Assembly (NCBI RefSeq): GCF_024464655.1
Contig: NZ_JANHAV010000002.1
Coordinates: 372,001-436,000 of the forward strand
Source: Halobellus inordinatus
GTDB lineage: Archaea; Halobacteriota; Halobacteria; Halobacteriales; Haloferacaceae
DNA: 64,000 bases
Reading direction: 5' to 3'
The notes beneath the pieces are model-generated. The model did no database searches and was not told where the DNA came from. It saw nothing but the letters and a program-made list of their open reading frames with translations. Below, one piece after another: positions 24,512 through 46,138 of the stretch. Within the stretch, counting starts at the first letter, position 1, and each line of letters begins with the position of its first letter. The translations under genes were made by a program, and so were the position numbers.

Positions 24512-24583
24512 GGGCTCGTAGATCAGGGGTAGATCGCTTCCTTCGCAAGGAAGAGGCCCGGGGTTCAAATCCCCGCGAGTCCA
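24512..24583 (+). tRNA. tRNA-Ala (anticodon CGC)
   Basis: The 72-nt sequence folds as a full cloverleaf: acceptor gggctcg with cgagtcc, D-stem gatc/gatc, anticodon stem cttcc/ggaag around the loop ttcgcaa (anticodon CGC, reading GCG), and T-stem cgggg/ccccg around ttcaaat. CCA is not encoded beyond the first base, as usual in archaea. Its 3' end is the attachment site of the 21.6-kb element, and integration leaves the tRNA intact. Confidence 0.95.
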
Positions 24584-24586
24584 CTC
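24570..24586 (+). repeat. Left attachment site (attL) in tRNA-Ala 3' end
   Basis: The 17-mer tccccgcgagtccactc runs from the T-loop to just past the tRNA 3' end and is repeated identically at 46122-46138. A tyrosine integrase ends 67 bp inside the right copy, so the pair is best read as attL and attR. Confidence 0.9.
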
Positions 24587-24742
24587 ACTTCTGGCCTTCT
24601 CACGAAGGCTTCGATTCCTCGCTGGAGAGCGCCTCGCTCGGCATTCTTCACTGAGCGACTGGTGTAACAAAACCAAGAAGGACACGAAGTTCGCCAGGAT
24701 CTGGCGCGATCCCCGCGCCGTCCCCCGAAGGAGGTGGTCGTT

Positions 24743-24850
24743 TTGAGCCTCGAGGCTCGCGGCCAGCTCATCTGTGAGTTCTGCGGTTGCCCGATCGACG
24801 AAGAGGGACAGCGCTGTCCCGCTCTCGATGACGGGAGGTGTCGCCCTTGA
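24743..24850 (+). CDS. 35-residue zinc-finger protein (TTG start)
   Basis: A 36-codon frame starts at TTG 24743, seven bases after a strong Shine-Dalgarno ggagg (24730-24734). The product begins MSLEARGQLICEFCGC and has Cys at about 11, 14, 16, 25 and 33, enough for a single zinc-binding knuckle. Its stop shares one base with the ATG of the next gene (TGATG). It opens the left-arm cassette of coupled small genes. The function is unknown; similar tiny zinc proteins are common in haloarchaeal viruses and plasmids. Confidence 0.6.
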   Translation: MSLEARGQLICEFCGCPIDEEGQRCPALDDGRCRP

Positions 24851-25110
24851 TGGACCTCTCTCGGGAGTCCGACGACAACCGGTGCCGCCACTGCGGCGCC
24901 CACGTCTCCCGTGACTTCGCCCGGACATTCGGCGACGAGGATGGGCGAGTTCACCGCTGCCTCGCCTGCGACTCTCGCGCGAGACTCCAGAAGGGCTCGG
25001 GAGCAGGGTGCACCGTCGGCTATCCGGACCCCGAAGATCAGGAGGGCCGGAACCACGGCCCGCGCGTTCGTGCCTCGACAAGCGGAGTCGTCAGAGGTGA
25101 CGAGCGGTGA
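24850..25110 (+). CDS. DUF7563-like zinc-ribbon protein
   Basis: The product has 86 residues with two CxxC pairs, CRHCGAHVS (about residues 12-20) and CLACDSRAR (about 38-46), spaced as a treble-clef zinc ribbon. It resembles the DUF7563 proteins of haloarchaeal mobile elements. The C-terminal half after about residue 52 is low-complexity and probably disordered. The gene starts in the TGATG overlap with the preceding stop, and its own stop overlaps the next GTG as GTGA. Confidence 0.7.
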   Translation: MDLSRESDDNRCRHCGAHVSRDFARTFGDEDGRVHRCLACDSRARLQKGSGAGCTVGYPDPEDQEGRNHGPRVRASTSGVVRGDER

Positions 25111-25304
25111 CGCACTGCTACGACTGCGGTCAGAAGGTCACGCGGCCGGAGAAGGCCCGCGTCTTCCTCCTCTACAACACCGAGCACGCGGTCGTTCTCT
25201 GCTACCGCTGTCGGCCGGGACGGGCTTCCGAGCGGCAGTACAAGCCCAAGATGGGCCTCCCACCACGACCGAAGGTCGAGATTCCCGGAGGTGAGCAGTC
25301 GTGA
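25107..25304 (+). CDS. Zinc-ribbon protein, 65 residues
   Basis: Starting at GTG 25107 (GTGA overlap with the preceding stop), the product begins MTHCYDCGQKVTRPEK and has a second pair CYRC at about 32-35, so CxxC-X25-CxxC. This is the geometry of a rubredoxin-like or treble-clef zinc ribbon. The C-terminus is basic and Pro-rich. It is coupled at its end to the next GTG start. A nucleic-acid or protein-binding accessory role is likely but not shown. Confidence 0.68.
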   Translation: MTHCYDCGQKVTRPEKARVFLLYNTEHAVVLCYRCRPGRASERQYKPKMGLPPRPKVEIPGGEQS

Positions 25305-25420
25305 TCTGCTTCGGCCCGTGCGACAACGAGGCTGAAGTCGTCGTCGACGGCCGGCGTGTCTGCCGGGAGTGCGCGTCACTCCTCGAAGCCGATCCTGAGC
25401 CCGCAGAGACAGCGCTATGA
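25301..25420 (+). CDS. Zinc-knuckle protein, 39 residues
   Basis: This tiny frame starts at GTG 25301, overlaps the preceding stop by 4 nt and ends inside the next ATG (ATGA). Its product has CFGPC at residues 3-7 and CREC at 21-24, giving four candidate zinc ligands. The Shine-Dalgarno ggaggtg lies just upstream at 25287-25293. The tight overlaps on both sides are the main evidence that it is real. Confidence 0.6.
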   Translation: MICFGPCDNEAEVVVDGRRVCRECASLLEADPEPAETAL

Positions 25421-25887
25421 GCAGCCGACGGACGCGCGATCGCGTCGAGTTCCCTCGCCTTCGTGACCGGCTCGGTGAGGATCCCGCGCGGTTCCTCGAT
25501 CGCCACCTCGTCGGTGATCGCGACGCACAGCGTATGGTCCGTGACCGGATCAAGGGCATCGACTCCCTCGCGGTCCTCTCTGCGTGGCGCGCTGTCGAGA
25601 AGAAACTCGCCGATCACCACGATCGCGAGCCGCGCCAGGGAGTCCTCAACCTGCTCGACGAGCGCGGGATCTGGCTCGATGAACACGGCGATCGCGAAGA
25701 CCGCGCCCAGCGCCTCGATCGCGGCCCGCCTACGGAGAGCGTCGCTGTCTTCCTCGATGAGGACGGCAACGAGCGGACCTCCCGCGACACCTATCAGTCG
25801 AGTTCTGCCTTCGACCGCGACCTCGAGGCCTACCTCTCCGATTCGGAGGAGTCGGCTGTCGCAACGGACGGAGGGGAAGAGCAGTGA
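25417..25887 (+). CDS. Unknown acidic/charged element protein, 156 residues
   Basis: The product is a highly charged soluble protein, probably mostly helical (many Arg-Asp and Glu-rich stretches), with no recognised motif. It is coupled by ATGA at its start and GTGA at its end to its neighbours, so it is expressed with the DUF7845-like gene that follows. I do not recognise the family. The compact middle part (about 40-115) might be a folded domain; the tail after about 120 is acidic. Confidence 0.65.
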   Translation: MSSRRTRDRVEFPRLRDRLGEDPARFLDRHLVGDRDAQRMVRDRIKGIDSLAVLSAWRAVEKKLADHHDREPRQGVLNLLDERGIWLDEHGDREDRAQRLDRGPPTESVAVFLDEDGNERTSRDTYQSSSAFDRDLEAYLSDSEESAVATDGGEEQ

Positions 25888-27673: not shown

Positions 27674-27729
27674 CTTCGCACCAAGTGCGAAGATCTCCTT
27701 AGGGAGTGTCCCTAAGAGGGACAGACTCC
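27674..27729. terminator. Convergent terminator region with alternative hairpins
   Basis: The 292-nt gap between the rightward DUF7845-like gene and the leftward membrane-protein block holds no gene. It contains cttcgcac/gtgcgaag around a 3-nt loop (27674-27692), then ggagtgtccct pairing with agggac-ag-actcc (27703-27729). A competing hairpin, cttaggga/tccctaag (27698-27716), overlaps the latter. An a-run at 27730-27733 would be a U-run on the leftward transcript just before the hairpin. A bidirectional transcription stop is the simplest reading. Confidence 0.55.
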
Positions 27730-27825: not shown

Positions 27826-28110
27826 TCAGCCGGTCTCGACGAAGACAAAATCCGCCAGGTAAGAGCAATATCTACGACAGAGGGCGACTGAGAGTCGCAG
27901 CGCAACGACAACGGCGAGCCCGTAGCCGACCGCGTACAGAACGGATGTCTCAGCGAACATAAGCCCACATACCATTGAATCGGTGGGACCCATACAGTAC
28001 GCGGGAACCGCAGCGTAATCTATCACAAAATATGATAGGATGACGGCCGCGATAGCGAGGGCGTCTCTCGCGATCCCAAGAGCCTCTCGAATCGCGGAGA
28101 CAGCGTTCAT
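27826..28110 (-). CDS. Small two-helix membrane protein, 94 residues
   Basis: This is the last gene of the leftward structural block. Starting at ATG 28110, which overlaps the preceding stop as ATGA, it encodes two hydrophobic helices (about 16-36 and 55-80) with four Cys residues in and near the loop and second helix. There is no cleavable signal peptide. The overlap shows coupled expression with the membrane gene upstream. Function unknown; a component of a membrane complex is likely from context. Confidence 0.62.
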   Translation of the reverse strand: MNAVSAIREALGIARDALAIAAVILSYFVIDYAAVPAYCMGPTDSMVCGLMFAETSVLYAVGYGLAVVVALRLSVALCRRYCSYLADFVFVETG

Positions 28111-28535
28111 AGATGATCCTCCTCGAGGACACGATCCTCGGGCGTTGTCCGCCGTAGTCGCAGATACTCCGCGAGCCATACGGCCCCGTGATAGCCCAGA
28201 TACGCGCAAACGAGTACGAGCAGGCCATTCGAGACCGCCGGCGCGATCGCGTAGGCGATCTGTCCCACCGGATTCGCCTGTAGCAGGTAGGTCAGCCCCG
28301 TATCCGGCGACGCCACGAACGCCACGATCGCGATCGCGAGTGTACCGAGGAACCCATATCCCAGCTCGCTCACTCGCGCGGCCAACTCCTCGCCTGGATC
28401 GAGCGTCACGCCGACAGCGATCGTCCACACTGCCGCGAGCCACCCGACGAAGTTGTTCGACCAGCCGATCCCGAGCATCCCGACGAGATCAAGGTAGTTC
28501 ACCAGTGCGAGGAGAGCGAGCCCCCCGAGCAGCAC
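28107..28535 (-). CDS. Multi-pass membrane protein, 142 residues
   Basis: The product has four hydrophobic helices (about 2-20, 29-46, 60-80 and 97-120) and a charged C-terminal tail. I used GTG 28535, the first possible start in an open frame whose upstream part lacks ATG; the true start is uncertain by some codons because 61 nt separate it from the preceding gene. Its stop overlaps the next gene. No family recognised. Confidence 0.58.
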   Translation of the reverse strand: MLLGGLALLALVNYLDLVGMLGIGWSNNFVGWLAAVWTIAVGVTLDPGEELAARVSELGYGFLGTLAIAIVAFVASPDTGLTYLLQANPVGQIAYAIAPAVSNGLLVLVCAYLGYHGAVWLAEYLRLRRTTPEDRVLEEDHL

Positions 28536-28596: not shown

Positions 28597-28905
28597 TCAC
28601 GAGATCCACCTCCCGAGTTGTGCGACGAGATCTGTCCGGCGCACGTGATCGAGGCCGACTTGGATCAGCTCCCGGCCGCGCTCGATGTCAATCGTCGCCA
28701 CGCCCAGCACGAGCAGCACCGTCAGCACCAGCGCGATCACTTTCAAGTCGTGCTGGATCGTCGAGCCCGCGTGCACGACTCGCTGTCCCGCGGTCGCCGC
28801 CTTATGCGTGTAGAGCAGAACCGAGACTAACAGCACGAGTGCGACCGTGCTCACGCCTTTGAGCCCGAGCGCCGTGATCGCCCGGCCAGCAATCCCCTCG
28901 ATCAC
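28597..28905 (-). CDS. Two-helix membrane protein, 102 residues
   Basis: GTG 28905 overlaps the stop of the large surface protein as GTGA. The product has helices at about 14-32 and 53-70, with a short loop containing two His residues and a basic C-terminal part. The coupling to the surface-protein gene suggests that they act together, for example as a membrane anchor or chaperone for the ectodomain. No family recognised. Confidence 0.62.
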   Translation of the reverse strand: MIEGIAGRAITALGLKGVSTVALVLLVSVLLYTHKAATAGQRVVHAGSTIQHDLKVIALVLTVLLVLGVATIDIERGRELIQVGLDHVRRTDLVAQLGRWIS

Positions 28906-31900
28906 CTTCGGAACCTCCCGAGGTTGAAGTCAACCGTCGTCTCGGGCGTCGCGGCCTCCTTCTTGCGAGACTGCCACCACGTGACGACCGAGTAGCCGAC
29001 GATCCCGATCGTCGCGAGTCCCGCCAGCGGGACGACGTCCTGGAGGCCCGCGCCGATCGCCGAGGAGACGATCCCCGGTCGAAGCACCTCCACGGACAGC
29101 AGTCCCGTCCCGAGGCTGACCGCGCTGACGAGCACCCACCGCGGCCGTCCGGATAGCTCCGAGCGTCCTGTCGCAGCGACCAGCAGCACGACCAGCGCCG
29201 CCCACGCGACGACGACTGCGATCTCCTGGAGTGTGGTTCCCGGCGACGGCTGCGGCCAGTTCCCACCGACGCTGCCGATCGAGGAACTACCACCACTGTC
29301 AGAACCACCGCCGTCGGAACTCCCGGCGAGTTGGATCTTCAGGACCTCCTCGCTATCGTCGACGTCAAAGACTGCGACGCCGTTCTCGGCGGTCGCTTTG
29401 TCGACGGGTCGCTCTCGGGAAACCGAGTACGCCTCGTAGCTCTCACCGTTCTCGACTGCGTAGTATCGGATCGCGACGTCGTCACCGACAGCGCTCGGAC
29501 CGCCGCTGATCTTGATCTTCGATCCGTCCGCGTCCTCGAGGCGGACCCGAGCGTCATTGGTCTGCGGGACGACCTCCATCGGAGCGGTGGTGATCCAGGC
29601 CGTGTCTCCCGCGTCGGCGTTCGGGAGATAGAGTTTCTGTGTGCCGTCGGATGAGATTACACTTGCGTCCGCGGTAGTCTCCCAACTCTCCTGATATGCG
29701 TAGTGGAGCCGTTCGCTCTTCCCGACGACGATATGAAAGCCGCTGCTGCGACTGTCGACCTGGATCTTACTGTCGATCTTCGCCGCATCCGGGTCGGTAG
29801 GCTTCGGGACGCTGATCTGACCGTTCTCTACCTGAACCATCCGACCCTCAACACGGACCTCGACTTTCGTCCCGGCGTCGACGTCGCCGTCAGTATCACC
29901 GTCTTTCAGATCGACGACGAGCGTGTTATCCGACCAGCTGTAGCGGCTGTCCGGCACGCTGCTCCACGACCCATCGTTGATCGACCACTCCAGCTGCGGG
30001 AGTCGGTAGACTGTCGACGAGAATGGGACCTCAAGCGTCGGGTTCGATTGCGTCGAGCTGAATGTGTTTGAGACGTTGTACGTCTCTGCGAATCCGTTGC
30101 TATGGTACTCAGTTTTGACAGAGGTCGACGCATCGTGGCTGTACTGGAGGTCCACTTGCATCGGCGGCGCGTCAGCCGAGAGCGCGCCGTCGTCGAGCGA
30201 GACATTCAGTTGGTTTGTACCGTCCCGGAGCGACGCCTTGTCGCCGGACAGTGTGGCAGTCTCCCCATCCGAGAGCGTTCCCGAATAGGACGACCATACG
30301 CCATTAAGATCGACAGCGGGGTTTTGTGTTTCCGTCTGTTCGGTGAACTGAACTGTCGCGTCGACAGGTCCCCCTGTTAGCGTCGCCGACGCGGTATGAG
30401 ATCCCACCGAGATGTTTGACAGTGATCGCGTTGCTGACTCGCCAGCCACCAATATCCCCGAATACGATGCTGTCGAGCCGTCTACCGATAGACTCGGGTC
30501 CTCGGTCGCCGTCCGCTCTTTCATCCGTAATACGTAATCGATGCTCCCCCAGTCATCCCCGAGGAAGTCGATTGTAGCCGACGACGGAGAAAGCGAAACC
30601 TCTCGCGTTTTGGTTTCGCCATCGGCGAAGTCCCCAAAGGAAGCGCTAACGTCACCTCCCACGCTTAGATCGTTAACTGGCTGTGTGATTTTCAACCCAA
30701 TATCAGCGTAGTCCTCGCGTGTCGTCCCGCCTAATGAGTCGGACATTACCCACACCGACGAGGCGCTATCGTCCGTGGCAATATCGAGGTAGTCTCCAGT
30801 ATCGTCACCGTCTGAGTTTGTCGTGACAAACTCGATTGTGTAGTCCTGCCCGGATTGAATCTTATACGGAGTGTCGAGCGTGACTGTCTGCGTGCCCGTG
30901 GTCCACGACGGATTCCAATTCTCTTTAACGAGTGTTCCCTCGCCTTGAGTAGTATCCGGCGTCTCGTGGACCATATACACATCCACGTTCGGGTTGTATT
31001 CGTTTCCATAAACACGGTCTATATTGACTGTTAGCTCTGTGACCTCTCCACTGGCGTCGGGCTGAACACGGAGTTCTATCCAAGTTTTCGCGTTGTTGGA
31101 GTCGTCTCCCGCGATGTTCCACCCCTGATCATTTGTGCCGTCTCCGTGTGTGTCAATCGGATTATAGGAGGACGTCGATCCGTGGTGCGCTGTGACCTCC
31201 AAAACTGGCTTATTGTTTGATCCCGGTCCGGTCGGATCGAGGTTGCCGCCGATAGAGGGCGAAAACTGGCCCGAAGGAGAGTCGGAGCCCGAGACGTTGT
31301 GCCACGAACTTGAGGAGCGGCCGTTGAAGGTAACAGAAGCGTCCGAGGCCGCTGTCGTGCCAGCAACATCCAGGCTGAGGCTATCTCCGTCGGTCAGCGT
31401 CGCCGATGCTGATTCGGTTTCTGAATTGGTTACGCCGGTTAGGTCTATCACTGGATCGGAGACGCTGTCGGTGCCGGATAGATCGTAGGAGAAGGACGAG
31501 CCGTCAGTCGCCGGCGCCGCAGAGATCTCGACGGTCCCCGAGAACGTCACCGAGTTACTGGAGAACTTCGGGATCTCGAAGTACAGCAGACCGTTCTCCG
31601 CGCGGACCTGACTCGACCACTCGTCACCGTCCTCGTGGACACCGTAGACGACATTCGGCACGTGTCCGACCGCCTGCCGGATCGCGTCGGATGGCACCGC
31701 GACGGTCCGTCCCTGATGCTCGCTGTCGTCTTTGAACACGAGTGCGAGATCGCCACTCCCGACCTGCGAACTGCTCACGTAGTCGGACGCTCGCTCCGGC
31801 GTCGTGATCACGACCTGGAGACTGTCGGCGTGATCGCTCGCCATCACCGAGCCCTCGAGGTCCGACGGTGCGAGCCCCACGCTCGAGCCCGCCGGCAGAT

Positions 31901-32030
31901 CCTCGGTGATGTTGCTGTCCGGGACACCGACGTAGCCACTGCTCTGAGCGAGCGCCGGAGTAGCCGCGCCGGCCAAGACAGACGTGAGTAGCAAGAGCGC
32001 CACCAGCGCCGAGGCGATCTTCGATCTCAT
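28902..32030 (-). CDS. Large surface protein with signal peptide and C-terminal membrane anchor, 1042 residues
   Basis: A clear Sec signal peptide (residues 1-28, ending ATPALA) precedes a Ser/Thr/Asp-rich ectodomain of about 900 residues with several beta-sandwich-like modules. Recurring units of the form DP-x-LxG...SYSG.L.DGE.ATLS occur about residues 495-620. A Gly/Ser linker (about 930-950) leads to three membrane helices (about 955-1025) and a basic tail. No cysteine was noticed. This is the architecture of a haloarchaeal virus spike or plasmid-vesicle surface protein. It is probably glycosylated, with several NxS/T sites. A TATA-like element at 32085-32090 may give it its own promoter. 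Confidence 0.75.
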   Translation of the reverse strand: MRSKIASALVALLLLTSVLAGAATPALAQSSGYVGVPDSNITEDLPAGSSVGLAPSDLEGSVMASDHADSLQVVITTPERASDYVSSSQVGSGDLALVFKDDSEHQGRTVAVPSDAIRQAVGHVPNVVYGVHEDGDEWSSQVRAENGLLYFEIPKFSSNSVTFSGTVEISAAPATDGSSFSYDLSGTDSVSDPVIDLTGVTNSETESASATLTDGDSLSLDVAGTTAASDASVTFNGRSSSSWHNVSGSDSPSGQFSPSIGGNLDPTGPGSNNKPVLEVTAHHGSTSSYNPIDTHGDGTNDQGWNIAGDDSNNAKTWIELRVQPDASGEVTELTVNIDRVYGNEYNPNVDVYMVHETPDTTQGEGTLVKENWNPSWTTGTQTVTLDTPYKIQSGQDYTIEFVTTNSDGDDTGDYLDIATDDSASSVWVMSDSLGGTTREDYADIGLKITQPVNDLSVGGDVSASFGDFADGETKTREVSLSPSSATIDFLGDDWGSIDYVLRMKERTATEDPSLSVDGSTASYSGILVAGESATRSLSNISVGSHTASATLTGGPVDATVQFTEQTETQNPAVDLNGVWSSYSGTLSDGETATLSGDKASLRDGTNQLNVSLDDGALSADAPPMQVDLQYSHDASTSVKTEYHSNGFAETYNVSNTFSSTQSNPTLEVPFSSTVYRLPQLEWSINDGSWSSVPDSRYSWSDNTLVVDLKDGDTDGDVDAGTKVEVRVEGRMVQVENGQISVPKPTDPDAAKIDSKIQVDSRSSGFHIVVGKSERLHYAYQESWETTADASVISSDGTQKLYLPNADAGDTAWITTAPMEVVPQTNDARVRLEDADGSKIKISGGPSAVGDDVAIRYYAVENGESYEAYSVSRERPVDKATAENGVAVFDVDDSEEVLKIQLAGSSDGGGSDSGGSSSIGSVGGNWPQPSPGTTLQEIAVVVAWAALVVLLVAATGRSELSGRPRWVLVSAVSLGTGLLSVEVLRPGIVSSAIGAGLQDVVPLAGLATIGIVGYSVVTWWQSRKKEAATPETTVDFNLGRFRR

Positions 32031-32250: not shown

Positions 32251-33627
32251 TCAGCATCCTCCGAGCACCTCCTGAACCTCGGGGAATCGAAGGTGCAACT
32301 GCCCCGGCACCTTGAACTTCGAAGGGACGTCGGACCACGAGAAGTCCGCGAAGTGCTGGGAGTTCCACGAGAGCGCCTGCCCCAACTGCATCCGGTTCGT
32401 ATAGTTCCGGTTCATCGGCGCCTCGCCCATTCCGGTCGTGTCTCCAGTCGGGTTGTCAGCGCCAGCGAGCGTGATCCGCCAGCGCTGTTTCTTCCGGACC
32501 AGTGAAGCGAGATCCTCGGGATCGTGGCCGATCCCGAACACGGAGAACTTGTTTCGGCGAGCGTCGACATACTTGTCTCTGAAAGCCGAGATCCGGTCGT
32601 ACAGTCGGTGGTAGTCGTTGCTCGCGTGTTCCGGCATCCAGTTCCCGATCTCGTCGGCGAGCAGTGAGACCCAGATCGGCGGTCCGTGGTCGATCTTGTC
32701 GATCGCCCAGGCGAACCACCACATCTCCTGCGGCGTCACGTCCTGCGGAGTGAGATCGTCCTCGTCGCTCCGCTTGACGTCCCACGCCGAGATGTGCTCG
32801 ATCTCCTGAATCTCGTCGGCCTCGCGGAACGCCCGAGTTGCGCCGCGGAACTTCGGATCCGGGTAGACCACGTGGAACATTCCCTCCTGGAGGACCTCGT
32901 GGTTCAGTTCTCGGATCGAGTCGTACCGGACGACCTCGTGGACCATCTCCTCGAGGTCGATCTCGATCGGATCCATCGTGTCCGACGGAGGGTCGAGGAC
33001 TGCGTCGACGTCGAGACCAGCCGGGAGACAGAGCCGCGTCCACGCACGGAGCGGGAGCCACTCCGCACGGGCCGGCGAGCCGCGCCAGACGACAGCGTCG
33101 GGGTTGATCTCCAGGTGCCGAATCATCAACGAGATCGCCATCGTCGACTTGCCCGAGCCCTTCGGCCCGAACGCGCCCCAGTCGGTGCCGCCGATCCGCA
33201 ACTCCTGAACGATCTCCGGATGCTCCTGGAGCCACCGGAACAGTTCTCGCCGCGGCTTCGAGAGCCCCGAGAGGTCGTCGTGCTCGAGCCGCAGTTTGTC
33301 GAGATCGTCGATATGGATCAGGTGATCCAGGAACGCTCGCGGATGATGAACGATTGGGTGAGTGCCGTCCTCGATCGCCGGGTGGTTCATCCGCTCCAAG
33401 TCCTCGAGGACGTTCGACCACGTCCGGAAGCCGAACGCCCGCCGTAGGTTCTCGCCGATCGTGTGAGCGCGCTCGTCGCCCGTCAGTTGCCGCGTGCGCT
33501 CGATCCCTGGCGCGTCCACCTCCTCGACACGCTCGCGCAGGAGGTCCGGATCCTGAACGACCTCCAGCATACTGTACTCCTCGTCGTCGGTGCCGGCGAC
33601 GTCCGCCGGCGGCGTCTTCGAACTCAT
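32251..33627 (-). CDS. P-loop NTPase of the element, 458 residues
   Basis: From ATG 33627 (MSSKTPPADV), overlapping the preceding stop by 4 nt, the protein has Walker A GPKGSGKST at about 154-162 and Walker B IWVSLLADE ending at about 325. About 150 residues precede the P-loop. The ATPase core is about 300 residues, shorter than VirB4 and unlike terminases. It may power particle assembly, membrane budding or DNA packaging, as the single NTPase of pleolipoviruses is supposed to do. An N-terminal extension of the frame overlaps the upstream gene and is non-coding in this frame. Confidence 0.75.
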   Translation of the reverse strand: MSSKTPPADVAGTDDEEYSMLEVVQDPDLLRERVEEVDAPGIERTRQLTGDERAHTIGENLRRAFGFRTWSNVLEDLERMNHPAIEDGTHPIVHHPRAFLDHLIHIDDLDKLRLEHDDLSGLSKPRRELFRWLQEHPEIVQELRIGGTDWGAFGPKGSGKSTMAISLMIRHLEINPDAVVWRGSPARAEWLPLRAWTRLCLPAGLDVDAVLDPPSDTMDPIEIDLEEMVHEVVRYDSIRELNHEVLQEGMFHVVYPDPKFRGATRAFREADEIQEIEHISAWDVKRSDEDDLTPQDVTPQEMWWFAWAIDKIDHGPPIWVSLLADEIGNWMPEHASNDYHRLYDRISAFRDKYVDARRNKFSVFGIGHDPEDLASLVRKKQRWRITLAGADNPTGDTTGMGEAPMNRNYTNRMQLGQALSWNSQHFADFSWSDVPSKFKVPGQLHLRFPEVQEVLGGC

Positions 33628-36786: not shown

Positions 36787-37023
36787 TCATAGTGTCTCGT
36801 CTACCTCCTCTCGTTTGCTCCAGAGATCACCCAGCCGCAGGCCGACGTACAGCAGCGTCGCGAACGCCATCGGCCCGCGGAGATCGGGGAGATCGTACAC
36901 TGGAGCGAGGTACGTCTGATAGCTCCCCAGCATCCCGAACCAGATCGTCTCCGAGTGAGCGATCCAGGCGACGAGATTCCCGAGGAGCGCTGTTCCGCCT
37001 TCGAGCGTGTTCTTCAGACTCAT
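36787..37023 (-). CDS. Small membrane protein, 78 residues
   Basis: ATG 37023 overlaps the preceding stop as ATGA. The product begins MSLKNTLEGGTALLGNLVAW and has two moderately hydrophobic segments (about 12-35 and 50-65) and a charged C-terminus. The overlap supports the frame. No family recognised. Confidence 0.62.
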   Translation of the reverse strand: MSLKNTLEGGTALLGNLVAWIAHSETIWFGMLGSYQTYLAPVYDLPDLRGPMAFATLLYVGLRLGDLWSKREEVDETL

Positions 37024-37526
37024 CGTTTGAACGCCCCCAGTGCGCCCTCGATCGCGCCGCCCGCCGGCGTCGCGTTCACGATCGCGTAGATCGTCGCTAC
37101 GATCACGGTTCCGAGCAGAACGATCGCGAAGGCCGTCGCCGGGGGACCAGCGAAGCCCGCCGTATGTGCGACGCCGATCGCGACGTCGAAGATCATCCTT
37201 ATCAGGTCGATCACCGCGTCCTCGGTCACGTCGAACGGCGTCTGGAGCGGCGGAATCGCCGTCAGTAGGATCGAACGGGTTCGCTCGTAGGCGAAGATGA
37301 TCCAGCCCAGCACGTACTGCGTGGAATCGAGGATCCCGCCGACGATCCACTCGGCGATCAGGTCGAACACGTAGTTTCGAAGCCACTGTCTGGGGTTCGA
37401 GGCGATCGTCACGAGCGTCCCGGCGACGGGTGCGAGTTTCTCCAGGTCGTAGACGAAGTCCGGGACGGGATCTGAGCCCCCACCGCCAGAACCAGGGAGC
37501 TGGATCGGAAGCATAGGGACCCGCAT
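37020..37526 (-). CDS. Membrane protein, 168 residues
   Basis: The start ATG 37526 shares one base with the upstream TAA. The N-terminus has a Gly/Ser-rich linker (residues 11-18), then amphipathic and hydrophobic helices (about 30-45, 55-80, 85-100, 105-125, 130-152). The protein ends basic (FKR). Its stop overlaps the next gene. It may be a pore- or scaffold-like membrane protein; family unknown. Confidence 0.65.
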   Translation of the reverse strand: MRVPMLPIQLPGSGGGGSDPVPDFVYDLEKLAPVAGTLVTIASNPRQWLRNYVFDLIAEWIVGGILDSTQYVLGWIIFAYERTRSILLTAIPPLQTPFDVTEDAVIDLIRMIFDVAIGVAHTAGFAGPPATAFAIVLLGTVIVATIYAIVNATPAGGAIEGALGAFKR

Positions 37527-37918
37527 TAGGCCCACCTCCGGGTCGCGACGACTAGGAGCCCGGCGACGACGACGATCTCGATCGAGAAAAGCGCCGGCGC
37601 GAGCAACGGGCTCGTCTCGGTGGCCGCTCGGAACGCTTCGCCCCACGTTACAAACGCGGCCCTCGAGGCGTTCTCGCCAAACGCTACGATGATGTTGTAG
37701 TACATCTCTGCGGCCGCGTCGAGCAGTGAGACGTGGATCTGCACAATCGTCTGCGTGACCGTGATCCAGCCGGCCGCGACGACCAGCCAGAGCGATCCGA
37801 GAAGCGTGCTTACGAGCTTCCCGACCAGAATCTCACCACCACTCACGAACGTCGATGGATCGGACACTGGACTCCCGAAGCGGCCCGTGATGAGCCTCGG
37901 GTCGGAGTCGGAACTCAT
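37526..37918 (-). CDS. Two-helix membrane protein, 130 residues
   Basis: ATG 37918 begins a protein with a polar N-terminus, a hydrophobic helix at about 30-60 and another at about 108-127, followed by a short basic end. The 46-nt gap to the upstream gene has no other frame I trust. No family recognised. Confidence 0.62.
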   Translation of the reverse strand: MSSDSDPRLITGRFGSPVSDPSTFVSGGEILVGKLVSTLLGSLWLVVAAGWITVTQTIVQIHVSLLDAAAEMYYNIIVAFGENASRAAFVTWGEAFRAATETSPLLAPALFSIEIVVVAGLLVVATRRWA

Positions 37919-37964: not shown

Positions 37965-38408
37965 TCAGTTCTCGTCGTCGAGGTCCCCGCCCGTGTCGAG
38001 GCCGATTATCGGGAGGTCGATACCAGTGAACGTGTCCGCGTCGATCACGTCGAGGTACCAGAGCATCGGAGCGAGTCCTGCGACCATCGCTCCGACACCC
38101 ACGACCACTACGAACGGACCAAGCGACAGCCACGGATCCATCCCGAGCGCGACCGCGGCGGTGTTCCAAACGTCCTGAAGGTACTCCGCCGGAGCGCCGA
38201 AGCCGGCACTGATCAGTGCCGACGTAGCTGCGGCGAAAGCGTCGACGGGACTGGTGATCAGGTTCGCGAACGCCTCCCCGACCCCGATAACGATCGAGAA
38301 GATCGCCAGCACCAGCCCTCCAGCACCCGCGACGAAGGACTCGCCAAACCCCCCGAGAGTGTCGGCCTTGTTGATGTAGGTCAGCGCGCGGTCGAGGCGT
38401 GGTGCCAT
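37965..38408 (-). CDS. Membrane protein, 147 residues
   Basis: From ATG 38408 the product has three or four helices (about 22-50, 55-75, 92-118) and an acidic C-terminal tail ending GGDLDDEN. It lies 6 nt after the 502-residue surface protein in the same block. No family recognised. Position and size resemble small membrane proteins that accompany spike genes in pleomorphic viruses, which is only an analogy. Confidence 0.63.
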   Translation of the reverse strand: MAPRLDRALTYINKADTLGGFGESFVAGAGGLVLAIFSIVIGVGEAFANLITSPVDAFAAATSALISAGFGAPAEYLQDVWNTAAVALGMDPWLSLGPFVVVVGVGAMVAGLAPMLWYLDVIDADTFTGIDLPIIGLDTGGDLDDEN

Positions 38409-38414: not shown

Positions 38415-39923
38415 TCAGGCCCCCTTCTTTCTGATGCCGATCATCGTCAGCAGGCCGACGACGCCGCCGGCCACCCAATTATACAGCGACATGAACGGGT
38501 TGCTGCTGCCGCCTCCGTTGGATCCCCAGAAGCCCCCCGCGCTCTGCGTGACCTGCGAGAGCGTCGTGTGCTGGTCTGCGAGGAGTTTCACGTCGAACTC
38601 GACCACGTAGTTCGTGTCCGGCTGGACTGTGCTGTCAGCCGTGAGAACCTGATCCTCCTCACCGAGGCTGTTCGTGACGTCGATCCAGGAGTCCTCGGAG
38701 ACGTCGCTCGGATCGGTGTCGCCGACACCCTCCGCGTAGCGGAGCTGGATGTAGCGATCACTCATAAACGTCTGCCGGTGCCGAAGTTCCATATCCCCGT
38801 GGCTGAGGTCGTATGCGGCCGGGATTGACCGCTCCCACGTCAGACTCAGACGCTTCGGGAAGCCCGGATAGTTGTCCGCGTCCTCGAAGGAGATCGAGAC
38901 CGCGCTCGGCTTGTCCTGGAGGCGGTACTGCACGTTCAGGTACGTGAGCTTGTGGACTGTCGCGTCCTCGAATGCCTCGTCGAGCCCCTGTAGACTCGAC
39001 ATATTGATCTCGCCGCCGAGAGGCCGCTCGCGGACGATTTCGCCGGTGTAGTCGCCATCGTCGTCAGTCGAGGTGTCGAGAACGCGCTCCTCGCCGAAGT
39101 CCCAGCGGGACTTCTTCTGGACGTTGAGGCCGGTCAGCGTGACCGTGGCGTCGCCGTCGCGGATCTCCACGCGGACGGTCTCGACCGCGTCGAGAGAACC
39201 GTCGCCGGTGCCTTGAACAGCGAACTGACCGAGCTGACGCTGGTAGATCACGCCGTTCGCCGTCTGGTTGGTGACGACGTCCTCGGCAGTCGCCGTCGCC
39301 GAGGAGCTGATCGTCGCGTTCACGTAGTCGCCGTCACCGTCGCGGACCTGGACGTCGACGACCGCGCCGCTCTCGAGGCTGTCGACGTTCAGGATCGACT
39401 GGAGGTAGAGCTTCTCGACGTCCGAGGTGATCGGGCTCCCCAGCGTGTACTCTGCGTTTCCGGTGGTGCCGCTGGAGAACGAGCCATCCGTAGCGATCTC
39501 GATCGAGGGAACGCCTCCGGCAGTCTTGCCGTCGGAGTCCGTGACCGAGACGCCGGTCGTCGAAGACCACTGACTGGTGTTGAGCCACGTGTAGGTGTTG
39601 TTCTCTTCGCCGGTGTATCGCGGGAACTGACCGAGAGGTTCGGCCTCGAGGCGATCGGCGCGGTAGGTGATCTTCGCGTCGCCGTCGGTACCGTTCACGT
39701 GGCCGTCCACTGTCCGGATTTTCCCGTTGTCGCCCTCGTACTGGAGCCAGCCCATTGAGGTCTGATCGTGGGACTCGACGGTGAGACGGTCCTCGTGGAT
39801 CCAGGTGTCGGGGTGGTCGTCAGCCTGTGCGTTCATCCCGTAGCTCGCCGCGACGGCCGTCCCTGCGCTGGAGGCCACCACGGCGAACACGAGCAGAATC
39901 GAAAAGAGTGTCTTACGTCTCAT
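38415..39923 (-). CDS. Second surface (spike-like) protein with signal peptide and C-terminal anchor, 502 residues
   Basis: The signal peptide covers residues 1-26 (basic start, hydrophobic core, ending GTAVAA). The ectodomain of about 445 residues is acidic and beta-rich, with no Cys noticed and several NxS/T sites. A Gly/Ser/Asn linker is followed by one membrane helix near 480-496 and a basic end (RKKGA). This type I topology, ending with a single anchor, is the pattern of pleolipoviral VP4-like spikes and of vesicle surface proteins. Its size matches that class. It is the first long gene of the leftward block. Confidence 0.72.
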   Translation of the reverse strand: MRRKTLFSILLVFAVVASSAGTAVAASYGMNAQADDHPDTWIHEDRLTVESHDQTSMGWLQYEGDNGKIRTVDGHVNGTDGDAKITYRADRLEAEPLGQFPRYTGEENNTYTWLNTSQWSSTTGVSVTDSDGKTAGGVPSIEIATDGSFSSGTTGNAEYTLGSPITSDVEKLYLQSILNVDSLESGAVVDVQVRDGDGDYVNATISSSATATAEDVVTNQTANGVIYQRQLGQFAVQGTGDGSLDAVETVRVEIRDGDATVTLTGLNVQKKSRWDFGEERVLDTSTDDDGDYTGEIVRERPLGGEINMSSLQGLDEAFEDATVHKLTYLNVQYRLQDKPSAVSISFEDADNYPGFPKRLSLTWERSIPAAYDLSHGDMELRHRQTFMSDRYIQLRYAEGVGDTDPSDVSEDSWIDVTNSLGEEDQVLTADSTVQPDTNYVVEFDVKLLADQHTTLSQVTQSAGGFWGSNGGGSSNPFMSLYNWVAGGVVGLLTMIGIRKKGA

Positions 39924-40275: not shown

Positions 40276-40533
40276 ATGCAGAAACTCAGAAAAGACAGCG
40301 GGTCCGGCGTGGTCACGATCCCGAAGAAGTTCCTCGAGAAGGACGACGTCATCTCAGACGACGAAGTCCCCGAAGGAGTTGCCGTCGACGTTGAACGCCT
40401 CGGGCGCAGGTCCTACGCGGTTCGGATCAGCGAGGATGGTGACTTCCCCGACCTCCAGGAGTCGGAGATCGTCGAGCGGCTCGCGGCCCAGCGACTCTTC
40501 GACGAAGGACTTCGTCCTGGGAGCGCCGACTGA
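40276..40533 (+). CDS. AbrB/SpoVT-like DNA-binding regulator, 85 residues
   Basis: The protein has the swapped-hairpin AbrB pattern near its start: MQKLRKDSGSGVVTIPKKFL, then a loop and RLGRRSYAVRI. Such small dimeric proteins bind palindromic operators and often regulate themselves. It is divergent from the structural block with an 11-bp palindrome between. No toxin gene lies beside it, so an antitoxin role is unlikely. It is leaderless and ends directly against the convergent recombinase gene with no gap. Confidence 0.7.
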   Translation: MQKLRKDSGSGVVTIPKKFLEKDDVISDDEVPEGVAVDVERLGRRSYAVRISEDGDFPDLQESEIVERLAAQRLFDEGLRPGSAD

Positions 40534-41136
40534 TCACGCGAGATCGGCTTCTTCGAAGGCTTCGTTGACGACCTCGGGTGTCGGCGCATTCAGGTATGGC
40601 TCGATCGCCTGGAACGAGTCCCACCCGCCGACCTGCATCACTACTCTCGGATTGATCTGTTTATCCACGAGCAGTCGCTGGGCGAACCGCCGCCGGAGAT
40701 CGTGGCTGCTCACGTATCGAAAGTCCTCGTCGCCAGTCTGCTCGGCTGCACGCTCGGCTGTGCGTTTGACCACGTCCCGGACGCCTCGCTCGGAGAGATC
40801 GACGTATGGCTCGTCGCGGCCGATGTCCTCTGCCGACTGATACCGATAGAGGTCGCCCTCGAGGGAGCTTGGAAGGTAGGCATCACGCGGCTTCCCGCCA
40901 CTCCCAGTCGTGTCCTTCCCCTCCGGCACACGGAGGCGGTAATGATCCTCTTCGATCCGTTTGACGTGCTTCGGACAGATCTGTGGAATCTCGAAGGCGC
41001 GAAGTCCCACGAAGCCCCCGAACTGGATCACGAGATCGTCTCGGTGGGTCGCCGCCGCACGTCTGAGCTTCAGGAGCTCGTCGTCGGTCATCCACACGTG
41101 GTACTGATCTGGCTTCGAGGTGGCCTCTAATCTCAT
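40534..41136 (-). CDS. Minimal tyrosine recombinase, 200 residues
   Basis: Only the catalytic domain is present. The active-site set is visible: Arg46 in GFVGLRAFEI, Lys at about 73, His145 and Arg148 in SSHDLRRRFAQ, Trp172 in VGGWDS and the nucleophile Tyr181 in IEPYLNAPT. Short recombinases of this kind are frequent on haloarchaeal plasmids and viruses, where they may resolve multimers or invert DNA. It differs from the 345-residue integrase at the right end. Its promoter (gcttatagt reading left, 41162-41169) predicts a leaderless mRNA. Confidence 0.88.
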   Translation of the reverse strand: MRLEATSKPDQYHVWMTDDELLKLRRAAATHRDDLVIQFGGFVGLRAFEIPQICPKHVKRIEEDHYRLRVPEGKDTTGSGGKPRDAYLPSSLEGDLYRYQSAEDIGRDEPYVDLSERGVRDVVKRTAERAAEQTGDEDFRYVSSHDLRRRFAQRLLVDKQINPRVVMQVGGWDSFQAIEPYLNAPTPEVVNEAFEEADLA

Positions 41137-41652: not shown

Positions 41653-41855
41653 CGTGACCACCGACAGAAATACAATCCGTTGTCGTCACTGCCCCTGTGC
41701 GGGCGTTAGCCCGCCATACACCTATTTCCATACGCACTGAACACTTCGAACCGCTGACTTTTATCTTTCGCCAGCAAACGCGGTACTGCGCCCAGGTGGA
41801 TCACTTTCACTCCGGACGGCTCGCTTACAAGTTCCCGAATCGAGTACCCCGAGCC

Positions 41856-42860
41856 GTGATCCAAAACGCCCGTGTCCTCAAGGAGGATTGGGTCCCCCAG
41901 GAACTACAACACCGCGACGGACAGCTCCAGCATCTCTCCGGGGAGCTAAAACCGATCGCTCACGGCCTCGGCGCGAAGTCGATCATCATCACCGGCCCGA
42001 GTGGGACTGGCAAGACCACGATCGCGAAATACATCGTCCGCCAGCTGGAGCAGGAGGTCTTCGGCATCCGCTGGGGCTACGTGAACTGTATCTCCGAGAC
42101 GTCTATGTCCTCGATCATCTACTCGCTCGTCGGCGACGCCGGCCGGGCGAACGACCTCCGGAAAGAGGGGACGCCGACCGCAGTGCTGCTCGATCGCCTC
42201 CGCGAGATGGACGAGCACTTTATCGGGATCGTCGACGAGGTCGACGTCCTTTCCGACGAGCAGACAATCCAAGCTCTCTGGGAGATCCCGAACGTCACGC
42301 TGGTCCTAGTCTGCGTCAACGAGGATGATTTCTTCGCCGACTTGGACTCCCGTGTCGCCTCACGACTCCGCGGCGCCGCGAAGATCTCCCTGGAGAAATA
42401 TCACCACGACGAACTCTGCGATATTCTCTGGGGGCGCATCCACGCCGGGATCGCCTCCGGCGTCGTCGAGGAGGAGACGGTCGACTATATCGCCGACGTC
42501 GCGGCCGGCGACGCCCGGCACGCGATCACGCTCCTCCGCCGTGCGGTCCGTGACGCTGTCGAGAGCGGAGACGAGACCCTCACCGGAGACCACGTCCGGA
42601 AAGTCCGAGAGGATGCCCGCGAGGAGATCCACGACCGGAACGTCGACACGCTCGGCACGCACCAGCGCCACCTCTACGAGATCATCAAGGACGCCGGCGA
42701 GATCAGCGCGAAGGACCTCCACGCTCGGTACGAGGGTCGCGTTGCCGACCCCCGCGCGAAGTCCACCCGGCGGAAGTACCTCCAGTCGCTGGAGCACTAC
42801 AAGCTGATCGAGTCCGCGGGATCGACACGGGCGCGGCGGTATCGATTCCGCGAGCCCTGA
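41856..42860 (+). CDS. Orc1/Cdc6-family AAA+ replication initiator
   Basis: The protein has 334 residues from GTG 41856 (MIQNARVLKEDWVPQ), which reproduces the family N-terminus. The upstream frame to 41697 lacks it and was rejected. Walker A GPSGTGKTT is at about 47-55, Walker B IVDEVD at 125-130, sensor 1 in LVCVNEDDF near 155, the Arg-finger region DSRVASRL near 164-171, sensor 2 in GDARHAITLLRRA, and a C-terminal winged helix from about 270. Such proteins bind origin repeats and load the MCM helicase. It is probably the element's own initiator, next to the repeats at 42861. Confidence 0.92.
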   Translation: MIQNARVLKEDWVPQELQHRDGQLQHLSGELKPIAHGLGAKSIIITGPSGTGKTTIAKYIVRQLEQEVFGIRWGYVNCISETSMSSIIYSLVGDAGRANDLRKEGTPTAVLLDRLREMDEHFIGIVDEVDVLSDEQTIQALWEIPNVTLVLVCVNEDDFFADLDSRVASRLRGAAKISLEKYHHDELCDILWGRIHAGIASGVVEEETVDYIADVAAGDARHAITLLRRAVRDAVESGDETLTGDHVRKVREDAREEIHDRNVDTLGTHQRHLYEIIKDAGEISAKDLHARYEGRVADPRAKSTRRKYLQSLEHYKLIESAGSTRARRYRFREP

Positions 42861-43311: not shown

Positions 43312-43590
43312 CTACGGTTCAGGGAGATCATCTTCGTCAAGGTCGCCCGCGAGGAACTCTCGGCCCAGGTCAGAGAGTTCGTAGATCCCGTCCGTGTTCT
43401 CAAAGAGGCCGGCATCCTCCAAGACCCGCATTCGCTCGTTGACGTACCTTCGATTGTAGTCGATGTTGAACGCGAGGGATTTCGCGGTCAGAGCTACGTC
43501 GTGCTCATCGAAGAACAGGAGAATCTCGTAGTCAACTGGCGAGAACCACGAGATCCGTTCTACCATCTCTTCGAGAACGTCTCTGAACAT
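43312..43590 (-). CDS. PhiH1-repressor-like winged-helix regulator, 92 residues
   Basis: From ATG 43590 (MFRDVLEEMVERISW) the protein has the pattern of haloarchaeal PhiH repressor-like domains: SPVDYEILLFFDEHDVALTA, NIDYNRRYVNERMRVLEDAG and YELSDLGREFLAGDLD, a single winged helix. These keep virus-type elements silent in their hosts. An earlier ATG at 43617 is possible but lies inside a 14-bp palindrome that looks like the operator. The gene is divergent from the zinc-ribbon/integrase operon, so it may repress that operon and itself. Confidence 0.78.
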   Translation of the reverse strand: MFRDVLEEMVERISWFSPVDYEILLFFDEHDVALTAKSLAFNIDYNRRYVNERMRVLEDAGLFENTDGIYELSDLGREFLAGDLDEDDLPEP

Positions 43591-43613: not shown

Positions 43614-43627
43614 TCATAAGCTTATGA
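43614..43627. promoter_or_regulatory. 14-bp perfect palindrome, candidate repressor operator
   Basis: tcataagcttatga reads the same on both strands and lies 23 nt upstream of the PhiH-like repressor start, in the divergent region before the integrase operon. It doubles as the best TATA-like element for the repressor gene, so binding there would autoregulate. Confidence 0.5.
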
Positions 43628-43683
43628 ACCTTAGTTCAGTGATTAACTGTACTATCGTGCAGAGAATTTATTACCGATTAGTT

Positions 43684-44190: not shown

Positions 44191-44480
44191 ACACGGAGCG
44201 TCTCCGCGTCGAAGGCGCTCGCGGGATCGTGTACGGCCCGGCGGTGGATGCCGAGGGGTACGTGCTCGCGATCGGGACCGATGAGCGCCGCGTCGAGATC
44301 GAACTCGACGAGGACGCGATGTACACGCTTTGGACCGAGGTGAAGGGGACTCCGTGGCCGGAGCCGGATCGGATGGCCGAGAAGGATCGACTCGTGCGCC
44401 AGGTTCTCCACGCGGCGAACGGTGCTGACGAAGAGGGTCTTCGCGAAGCGCTCCGGGTTCTGGGGGGTGAGTCAGCGTGA
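44187..44480 (+). CDS. Unknown small protein, 97 residues
   Basis: ATG 44187 overlaps the preceding stop (ATGA). The product (MNTERLRVEGARGIVYGPA) is beta-rich in its first 55 residues and helical after MAEKDRLVRQVLHAANGA. No Cys or membrane helix. The stop overlaps the next GTG. Its coupling on both sides makes it a real gene; the function is unknown. Confidence 0.65.
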   Translation: MNTERLRVEGARGIVYGPAVDAEGYVLAIGTDERRVEIELDEDAMYTLWTEVKGTPWPEPDRMAEKDRLVRQVLHAANGADEEGLREALRVLGGESA

Positions 44481-44614
44481 TATACGAGTTTTGTCCCCGC
44501 TGCGGCCACGAGTGCTACGACGCGGGGGTCTACTGCACCGGTTGCGGACTCGACTTGGACCGCGTGACTCGCGGACCGCCGAAGACCGATGAAGAACTGG
44601 AGGAAATGCGATGA
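44477..44614 (+). CDS. Zinc-ribbon protein, 45 residues
   Basis: GTG 44477 overlaps the preceding stop. The product begins MIYEFCPRCGHECYDAG and continues CTGCGLDLDR, giving two CxxC pairs 14 residues apart, a compact zinc ribbon. The C-terminus is a short acidic helix. The stop overlaps the next ATG (ATGA). Confidence 0.68.
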   Translation: MIYEFCPRCGHECYDAGVYCTGCGLDLDRVTRGPPKTDEELEEMR

Positions 44615-44745
44615 CCGACGCAACATCTCGAGACGTGGTCTCGTGTCCGCTCTGTCCGACTGGAACTCTCCGGGTTGTGAACGCGATCTACGCTAAGTGC
44701 GGCCACTGCGGCCAAGAAGTCCGTCGTGACGAGGTGGATCTATGA
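44611..44745 (+). CDS. Zinc-ribbon protein, 44 residues
   Basis: ATG 44611 overlaps the preceding stop. The product has CPLC at about 12-15 and CGHCG at about 30-34, a CxxC-X14-CxxC ribbon, with a charged C-terminus. The stop overlaps the next ATG. It is the third zinc protein of this cassette. Confidence 0.68.
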   Translation: MTDATSRDVVSCPLCPTGTLRVVNAIYAKCGHCGQEVRRDEVDL

Positions 44746-45020
44746 GCGATCGACCGGGAGACGAAGGGTCACACTACTGCGACGGCCTCGGCGAACGCCG
44801 TCCCGTCCCCGCGTGGCGCTGTAGTCTCTGCGGGATGGCGGAGGGCGGCGATACTGACCGACCCACGGACACCGTCTATCACGTCGTCTGTCACGGGTGC
44901 CCCTTCGAGCAGATTGTTGAGGGCGATCGCGTCCTCGCTGCGGCGAACGAAATCGTCCACCGGAAGCGCACGGATCACGCTGTCGAGTACGCGCCGGTTG
45001 AGGACTCAACGTCACGATGA
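44742..45020 (+). CDS. Zinc-finger protein, 92 residues
   Basis: ATG 44742 overlaps the preceding stop. Ligand candidates are CSLCGM (about 27-32) and CHGC (about 50-53), followed by an acidic-helical half (IVEGDRVLAAANEIVHRK). Its stop overlaps the integrase ATG. It could be a cofactor or excision-type partner of the integrase because the two are translated together, but no such function is visible in the sequence. Confidence 0.66.
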   Translation: MSDRPGDEGSHYCDGLGERRPVPAWRCSLCGMAEGGDTDRPTDTVYHVVCHGCPFEQIVEGDRVLAAANEIVHRKRTDHAVEYAPVEDSTSR

Positions 45021-46054
45021 GGGACGAGCCGAGCCACGGTCGGCTTCGGGAGCATCTTGAACCGCTCTCGCCTCAGGAGGGTGTCGAGCGGTTCTTGGAG
45101 CATCGAGAGCCGAACGTCGCGGAGTCGACCTTTCAGAACAACCAGACGACGCTCGAGCAGTTCCTCGCGTGGTGCCACGACGAGGAGATCGAGAACTTGA
45201 ACGAGCTCTCGGGCCGAAAGCTCGCGGACTTCGTCCATCACCGCCGCCAAGAGGTGAAGCCGATCTCGCTCCAGAAGGAGCTCTCGGCGATCCGAGTGGC
45301 GCTGGAGTTCTGGGCGGACATCGACGCGGTCGAGCCTGGGCTGCGTGAGCGCGTTCACGCGCCTGATGTCCCGGACGGGGCTGAGGCTCGTGACGTGAAG
45401 GTGGACTCTGCGGTCGCGGAGTCGATCCTCGAGTATCTCGATCGGTACCGCTTCGCGACTCGCGAGCACGTCGTGCTGTCGCTGTGGTGGAAGACGGGGA
45501 TCCGACTGGGGGCGATGCGTGGCCTCGATGTCGACGATCTCCGCGAGGAGGATCACGCGATCGCGGTCCATCATCGTCCGGAGTCTGGCACGCCGTTGAA
45601 GAATGGCTCGCAGGGCGAGCGGTGGGTTTGGGTCGGCGAGCGGCTATTCGAGCTGATCGAGGAGTATGTCGACGTCCATCGGATCGACGTTCGCGATGAT
45701 CGGGGCCGCGAGCCGCTGTTCACGACTCGGCAGGGGCGCGTCAGCGATTCGACGCTCCGCGATATTTCGTATCGGTGGACTCAGCCGTGTCGGTGGGACG
45801 AGTGCCCTCACGATCGCGAGCCGGAGAACTGCGAGGCGGTCGGGACTCCGAACACGCCGAGTAAGTGTCCGTCCGCGCGGTCGCCGCACGGGTGGCGTCG
45901 CGGGTCGATCACTGATCACCTCGCTCGAGGCGTGTCTCCGGAGATCGTCTCGGAGCGGATGAACGTGTCCCTCGAAGTGTTGTATCGACACTACGACGCC
46001 CGACGGCAGGACGAGAAGATGGCCGTGCGTCGTGAGCACCTCCAGGACAAATAA
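45017..46054 (+). CDS. int: Tyrosine site-specific integrase, 345 residues
   Basis: The N-terminal SAM-like core-binding domain covers about 17-115 and the catalytic domain about 125-335. Active-site residues are Arg163 (TGIRLGAMRGL), His291 and Arg294 (SPHGWRRG) and the nucleophile Tyr326 (LYRHYDAR). Between the two active-site halves is a Cys-rich insert with Cys at about 258, 263, 272 and 284, a possible zinc site. It lies at the right end, 67 bp from attR, and should catalyse insertion into tRNA-Ala. It is the last gene of a coupled cassette. Confidence 0.93.
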   Translation: MRDEPSHGRLREHLEPLSPQEGVERFLEHREPNVAESTFQNNQTTLEQFLAWCHDEEIENLNELSGRKLADFVHHRRQEVKPISLQKELSAIRVALEFWADIDAVEPGLRERVHAPDVPDGAEARDVKVDSAVAESILEYLDRYRFATREHVVLSLWWKTGIRLGAMRGLDVDDLREEDHAIAVHHRPESGTPLKNGSQGERWVWVGERLFELIEEYVDVHRIDVRDDRGREPLFTTRQGRVSDSTLRDISYRWTQPCRWDECPHDREPENCEAVGTPNTPSKCPSARSPHGWRRGSITDHLARGVSPEIVSERMNVSLEVLYRHYDARRQDEKMAVRREHLQDK

Positions 46055-46121
46055 AACTATGAGAGAAATCGCCAATTCGACTCACTCATTCAGTCAACGC
46101 GACGGTTCCCAGTTGGTGCTC

Positions 46122-46138
46122 TCCCCGCGAGTCCACTC
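46122..46138 (+). repeat. Right attachment site (attR)
   Basis: The 17-mer tccccgcgagtccactc is identical to the tRNA-Ala 3' end at 24570-24586. It marks the right boundary of the element. Confidence 0.9.

Follow-up and report, generated by a model that had tools for sequence, protein, structure and literature searches.

The pleolipovirus SNJ2 releases particles, and its Rep-Arvir protein (DUF7845) was shown in 2026 to be a rolling-circle initiator; Rep-Arvir needs an essential hairpin ~190 nucleotides (nt) downstream, and circularisation with the integrase upstream of rep licenses SNJ2 replication (PMC13107129). The haloarchaeal virus LSV-48N is released as lemon-shaped particles, and 13 virus proteins have been detected in the supernatant (PMC12714723). 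We analysed a 64,000-nt stretch ('the window') of the 3.4 Mb genome of Halobellus inordinatus (contig NZ_JANHAV010000002.1, positions 372,001 to 436,000) and identified a 21.6-kb element integrated at a tRNA-Ala(CGC) gene (Table 1). The element belongs to an intact, widespread, tRNA-integrating family that combines a viral-type rolling-circle backbone with a conserved block of membrane and surface proteins. Most likely, these virus-like elements form a new temperate lineage whose members probably contain lipid.

A Rep-Arvir backbone at tRNA genes

The element is bounded by exact 17-bp repeats, the longest exact repeat shared by the tRNA region and the 44-48.5 kb region of the window; the chance expectation of such a repeat is about 220 x 4500 / 4^17 = 6e-5. 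Its tyrosine integrase (g26) stops 68 bp short of the right repeat. An earlier note, made from the DNA letters alone, had described a tRNA-Ala-integrated element with 17-bp repeats, an integrase and Orc1/Cdc6, and tRNA prediction, repeat comparison and Pfam assignments confirm this description. The note had also placed repressors among the element's genes. We reject a repressor or 'regulator' role for g03, as this 549-amino-acid (aa) protein matches Pfam DUF7845 (PF25227) with an E-value of 5e-110 and is thus a Rep-Arvir protein. Deposited virus records widely label Rep-Arvir proteins 'transcriptional regulator'.

The KxY catalytic motif is kept in g03 (LKSYH, Tyr246), and in an alignment with HHPV3, Tyr246 falls at the KHYY motif. 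We identified a putative origin hairpin 174-190 nt past the rep stop codon, in register with TGTGGCTAAGGCCACA of HHPV3 and Harhisp1. The hairpin-to-rep distance is equal in the window element, HHPV3, LSV-48N, SNJ2 and Harhisp1, and the LSV-48N hairpin is also in register. The element therefore has both features of a betapleolipovirus-type replicon, a Rep-Arvir protein and a downstream hairpin origin.

Other backbone proteins have relatives in the same viruses. Rep is 27-30% identical to the SNJ2, Harhisp1 and LSV-48N proteins over 460-570 aa, and Cdc6 (g21) is 48% identical to that of SNJ2 and 46% to that of LSV-48N over ~330 aa. The integrase shares 53% identity with Harhisp1, 42% with SNJ2 and 38% with LSV-48N; the small regulator g23 shares 36-70% with its homologues in these viruses. 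By these sequence identities, the backbone (Rep, Cdc6, integrase and the small winged helix-turn-helix (wHTH) gene) is homologous to its SNJ2 and LSV-48N counterparts. The short recombinase g19 is 33% identical to an LSV-48N protein. Recombinases of the g19 type are 74-86% identical across several Halorubrum and Halobellus elements, far above the surrounding genes.

The same plan (tRNA, att, module, integrase, att) is found in three relatives, at tRNA-Pro with 14-bp repeats, tRNA-Lys with 18-bp repeats and tRNA-Ala with 16-bp repeats, and in each the long integrase adjoins an exact repeat. A tRNA target, direct repeats, an integrase and the use of several sites mark these as integrated mobile elements.

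In a Natronoglomus assembly, the whole element is a separate 24,350-bp contig with the 13-bp core CCCGGCGAGTCCA at both ends. The first 55 bases of this contig are the end of a tRNA-Ala(GGC) contig and the last 55 are the end of a second contig of the host. With k=55, an assembly graph is interrupted at such a place only if the 55-mers there have a second neighbour. An attP circle or a tandem copy would supply this neighbour, whereas a purely single integrated copy would not; the contig ends at both cores are thus as expected had reads from an excised circle or a tandem copy been present.

The leftward block and its conservation

Between positions 27826 and 40095, a leftward block encodes secreted and membrane proteins and one P-loop NTPase. 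Three of the proteins (1042, 587 and 502 aa; g07, g10 and g16) begin with hydrophobic signal segments, and the NTPase g08 has Walker A and B motifs. Serine plus threonine content is 22.3% in g07, which ends in three transmembrane segments, and 18.5% in g16, which has a C-terminal hydrophobic helix, versus 10.9% in the other element proteins. Seven small block proteins have one to three transmembrane segments and one more is borderline. Consecutive genes overlap at four start/stop junctions (28902-28905, 33624-33627, 36288-36291 and 37020-37023). The earlier note's account of the block, with three signal-peptide proteins, one NTPase, eight small membrane proteins, chained overlaps and Ser/Thr-rich proteins with C-terminal anchors, agrees with these observations.

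Of 391 Halobacteria genomes, 74 have a g08-family NTPase at E<=0.001 and 64 (~one sixth) have one at E<1e-30. The order g16-g15-g14-g13-(g12)-g11-g10-g09-g08-g07-g06 recurs around the NTPase in 20 contigs, at identities down to 22-30%. A second scan recovered the same order, with rare exceptions, in 37 named loci; related elements sharing a gene order, which the earlier note had looked to for support, thus exist. In counts that include some short contigs, profiles detected g08 and g09 in all 37 loci, g10 in 36, g15 in 34, g14 in 33, g16 in 31, g07 and g13 in 29 each, g11 in 26 and g06 in 20. Two loci (G030 and L191) have g07 displaced to a position before g10. Carriers include the culture-collection strains Haloarcula argentinensis, Haloferax gibbonsii ATCC 33959, Halorubrum sodomense and Haloarcula vallismortis. 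In a genus inferred to be Haloferax, 3 of 15 genomes gave strong NTPase matches. A 163-kb Halosegnis plasmid also bears the block, together with MCM and type-B polymerase genes.

Several further occurrences were noted. The genome that contains the window also has, elsewhere (G000, contig C20, ~218500-230600), another complete but divergent module (NTPase 35% and g07 41% identical), near which neither Rep-Arvir nor a long integrase was recognised. Halobaculum litoreum DT92 has two closely similar element copies on one chromosome. A haloarchaeal contig with the module, resembling that of Halobaculum litoreum, is present in the 'Rhizobium sp. S152' assembly and is probably contamination. The Haloarcula plasmids pNG100-pNG400 encode NTPases that are 27-29% identical and may hold another system; in pNG100, tblastn found no module gene besides the NTPase.

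To place the block, profile-profile comparisons used pleolipoviral families of 23-24 members, apHPV families from 17 loci and families related to LSV-48N (LSV families) from 20 loci. The g08 family matched the pleolipoviral NTPase profile with 96% probability over 65 columns around the Walker B/RK-GH motif. The reversed control scored 0.1%, the apHPV ATPase (ORF25) 1-3% and the Cdc6 control 90%; the Cdc6 match covers Walker A only, a generic P-loop match that we do not treat as evidence, whereas the pleolipoviral match covers Walker B and residues downstream of it. As judged from these profiles, g08 and the pleolipoviral NTPase are probably distantly related, and g08 is the sole block protein with such a relation. 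Other profile matches of module families were weak or confined to signal peptides and transmembrane stretches.

The NTPase match and the SNJ2-type Rep, Cdc6 and integrase would suit an element that belongs to the Pleolipoviridae but has diverged and enlarged its structural module; on this view the VP4 fusogen would correspond to g16 or g07, and g10 would combine ORF6 with ORF7. g10 also has a weak, short match to ORF6 (26-32 columns), but its probability fell from 77% over 32 columns to 52% with the larger family and ORF7 gave 10-21%, so we do not claim a fusion. Comparison of the module families with pleolipoviral VP3/VP1 and VP4 profiles yielded nothing beyond signal-peptide-sized stretches, and neither g16 nor g07 had a profile match to a VP4-type spike. 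The AlphaFold2 model of g16 (predicted local distance difference test (pLDDT) 83.4) contains a CBM11-like beta-sandwich, with the HFTV1 turret and CBM11 as best PDB matches; no pleolipoviral spike is among the 50 best PDB matches listed, and the fold search does not support g16 as the fusogen. Gene number and order differ from those of pleolipoviruses, and the backbone is equally common to a lemon-shaped virus. We consider membership in the Pleolipoviridae improbable. For g10 (pLDDT 79), a fold search returned no PDB match at E<0.001 and marginal BFVD matches (template-modelling score <=0.21).

A second candidate is a pR1SE-like (apHPV) plasmid that spreads in self-encoded plasmid vesicles. 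These plasmids are similar in style: they encode large secreted proteins, numerous membrane proteins, a single NTPase and Cdc6, and they integrate into chromosomes (PMC10818511). Kinship would call for at least five of ORF6, 8, 17, 21, 23 and 24, yet none of the apHPV core families (pHTUR05, pHALXA03 and 15 further loci) convincingly matched a module family, the S8 protease partner is absent and the gene order is different. Membership of this group is largely refuted and highly improbable, though the particle could be vesicle-like. Pleolipoviruses and pR1SE, the models named in the earlier note, do not hold up as kin of the block: with pleolipoviruses it shares only a probable, distant NTPase relation, a spike homologue was not found, and no profile match to pR1SE-like proteins was convincing.

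Comparison of the module with the leftward block of LSV-48N (blastp, hmmsearch and hhalign) also revealed no convincing homology. g07 resembles the 904-aa LSV-48N protein in architecture, but the profile probability is 8-10%, and we treat the resemblance as analogy.

Proposed module exchange and particle

In a tree of 31 Rep proteins, the branches of module-carrying elements are mixed, with strong support, among those of LSV-type and pleolipoviral replicons. Sister pairs join the window Rep with an LSV-type provirus Rep (100/99), the LSV-48N Rep with that of a module-carrying element in genome G078 (100/100) and the HHPV3 Rep with that of a Halobellus captivus element (100/100). The tree needs five module-label changes, no fewer than with shuffled labels, although some of the 40-kb stretches used might contain the Rep of a neighbouring element. 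The simplest reading of the sequences is that the block occupies the slot of the virion modules in SNJ2 and LSV-48N, and the interleaving makes it look like a third, exchangeable particle module. LSV-48N-type proviruses, recognised by 904-aa homologues, are present in 31 of 381 Halobacteria genomes from 23 genera, a wider range than the Haloferax range in PMC12714723.

These observations also bear on a contact-dependent DNA transfer or secretion machine, that is, an integrative conjugative element that forms no free particle. A membrane-rich operon, a P-loop NTPase and a multi-transmembrane core protein would all suit such a machine, and Rep-Arvir genes are known on integrative conjugative elements too (PMC13107129). 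Against this, no relaxase, VirB4 or VirD4 came up when the ten largest proteins were scanned against Pfam and PHROG. The window NTPase has no Pfam match below E 0.05, and its relatives match generic AAA and, weakly, Zot, with no HerA-type match. The Rep tree moreover mixes module elements with virion-producing replicons. We regard a conjugative element as unlikely. The earlier note had reported no recognisable capsid or conjugation genes and had named homology to conjugation or secretion machinery as the finding that would overturn its proposal; the scans support the former, and the latter was looked for and not found.

It is likely that the element is a complete-looking temperate virus-like element whose leftward 11-gene core builds a lipid-containing particle and serves as a third, exchangeable particle module on a shared replicon. 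We lean, with less assurance, towards the more specific proposal that the virion or transfer particle specified by the 11-gene block is of a new archaeal type, and that the block trades places on the Rep-Arvir replicon with the modules for pleomorphic and lemon-shaped virions. Particle exit is supported indirectly: two kinds of virus with a homologous backbone release particles of lipid or membrane type, and the block appears to be exchanged on this backbone. The particle need not be a vesicle, since the nearest authenticated backbone relatives include a lemon-shaped virus.

In the proposed cycle, excision would yield a circle with the integrase directly upstream of g02-rep on the same strand, as in SNJ2, and rolling-circle copying would then produce circular genomes. 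The core (g16 to g06) would build and load a lipid-containing particle, vesicle-like or lemon-shaped, with NTPase g08 powering DNA loading. g10 and g09 might together span the envelope as a core, g07 and the glycan-binding-like g16 might be surface and host-recognition proteins, and the small transmembrane proteins might form the shell or membrane.

Several results weigh against a virus-like element. No capsid, spike or membrane-fusion protein was recognised in the module. tblastn searches with g07, g08, g10 and g16 gave no match in 50,697 phage records, a collection that includes LSV-48N, SNJ2 and HHPV3, and a search of IMG/VR with NTPase patterns found no homologue. The excised form that the earlier note had expected finds assembly evidence, as an excised or multimeric form, in Natronoglomus, where the break pattern could also stem from tandem or second copies; the window element itself shows no sign of excision. 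No empty attB site was found within the genus; the right flank lies elsewhere in relatives. This flank (window 46378-48700) matches a region beside tRNA-Leu(TAA) in genomes of the same genus, which suggests that the tRNA-Ala locus was rearranged or hit more than once.

The absence of excision evidence for this copy would also fit a defective remnant retained for a host function. However, all module and backbone frames are open, the att repeats are exact, and the family occupies many genera and several tRNA sites with conserved order, which makes a remnant very unlikely.

The distinct lineage that the earlier note had suggested is supported. We found no description of the module in the papers searched, a search outside which the subscription literature lay. 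If the proposal of a new archaeal particle type is true, a new virus family is present in about one sixth of haloarchaeal species and absent from phage databases. A common, unannotated group of temperate elements, whose particle genes match none of the phage records searched, would then have been missed in haloarchaeal genomes. The family would also show cleanly that one replicon can exchange whole particle modules, whether for vesicle-like, lemon-shaped or unknown particles, and the assembly of particles without a known capsid would become testable.

Table 1. Features of the integrated element, in window coordinates.
Feature	Position	Strand	Basis
tRNA-Ala (CGC), integration target	24512..24584	+	ARAGORN
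attL, 17-bp exact repeat TCCCCGCGAGTCCACTC	24570..24586	+	repeat comparison
g02, small protein upstream of rep, kept in relatives	25534..25887	+	comparison with relatives
g03, Rep-Arvir rolling-circle replication endonuclease, 549 aa	25884..27533	+	Pfam PF25227 and alignment
Putative replication-origin hairpin TGTCCCTAAGAGGGACA	27707..27723	+	position and alignment with relatives
g04, small membrane protein	27826..28107	-	
g05, small protein, three transmembrane segments	28107..28535	-	
g06, 102 aa, two transmembrane segments, last core gene of module	28597..28905	-	
g07, 1042-aa secreted protein, Ser/Thr-rich ectodomain, three C-terminal transmembrane segments	28902..32030	-	
g08, P-loop NTPase, 458 aa, probably related distantly to pleolipoviral NTPases	32251..33627	-	
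g09, 303-aa soluble core protein	33624..34535	-	
g10, 587 aa, signal peptide, beta ectodomain, transmembrane helices, cytoplasmic domain	34528..36291	-	
g11, 146 aa, three transmembrane segments	36288..36728	-	
g12, 78 aa	36787..37023	-	
g13, 168 aa, transmembrane	37020..37526	-	
g14, 130 aa, two transmembrane segments	37526..37918	-	
g15, 147 aa, two transmembrane segments	37965..38408	-	
g16, 502-aa secreted protein, C-terminal hydrophobic helix; model with CBM11-like beta-sandwich	38415..39923	-	
g18, small conserved protein, probable regulator	40276..40533	+	comparison with relatives
g19, short tyrosine recombinase, catalytic domain only	40534..41136	-	Pfam Phage_integrase, E 2e-8
g21, Orc1/Cdc6	41697..42860	+	Pfam Cdc6_lid, E 2e-14
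g23, small regulator, wHTH	43312..43590	-	70% identity to LSV-48N gene 1
g26, tyrosine integrase, beside right repeat	45017..46054	+	Pfam
attR, 17-bp exact repeat	46122..46138	+	repeat comparison

Comparison with known systems

The pR1SE/apHPV plasmids share with the window element membrane and secreted core proteins, an NTPase, Cdc6 and chromosomal integration. They differ in their core families, S8 protease, HerA/VirB4-like ATPase and gene order, and no convincing profile homology links the two. Halfvol2, an active provirus of Haloferax volcanii compared here by description only, also integrates at tRNA-Ala, encodes many transmembrane proteins and has a predicted lipid envelope, but is only 12.3 kb long (PMC7911831).

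The betapleolipoviruses SNJ2, Harhisp1 and HHPV3 resemble the window element in Rep-Arvir and the origin hairpin, Cdc6, integrase and tRNA integration, in a probably distantly related NTPase and, as predicted from the window's gene order, in the int-attP-rep arrangement after circularisation. The window block is about twice as long as theirs, encodes two large surface-type proteins and continues past the NTPase with g07 and g06; no VP3 or VP4 homologue was found in it.

LSV-48N (PP151251; PMC12714723), a lemon-shaped temperate virus of Haloferax, is 24.9 kb long, near the 21.6 kb of the window element, and has an integrated state, like the window element, and a circular one, as predicted for the window element. 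The places of g08-g10 are taken in LSV-48N by a DnaA-like ATPase and a soluble protein of 824 aa. The two have in common Rep-Arvir, Cdc6 (46%), the small regulator (70%), long and short integrases, and a leftward block with small transmembrane proteins and a large signal-peptide protein that ends in three transmembrane segments.

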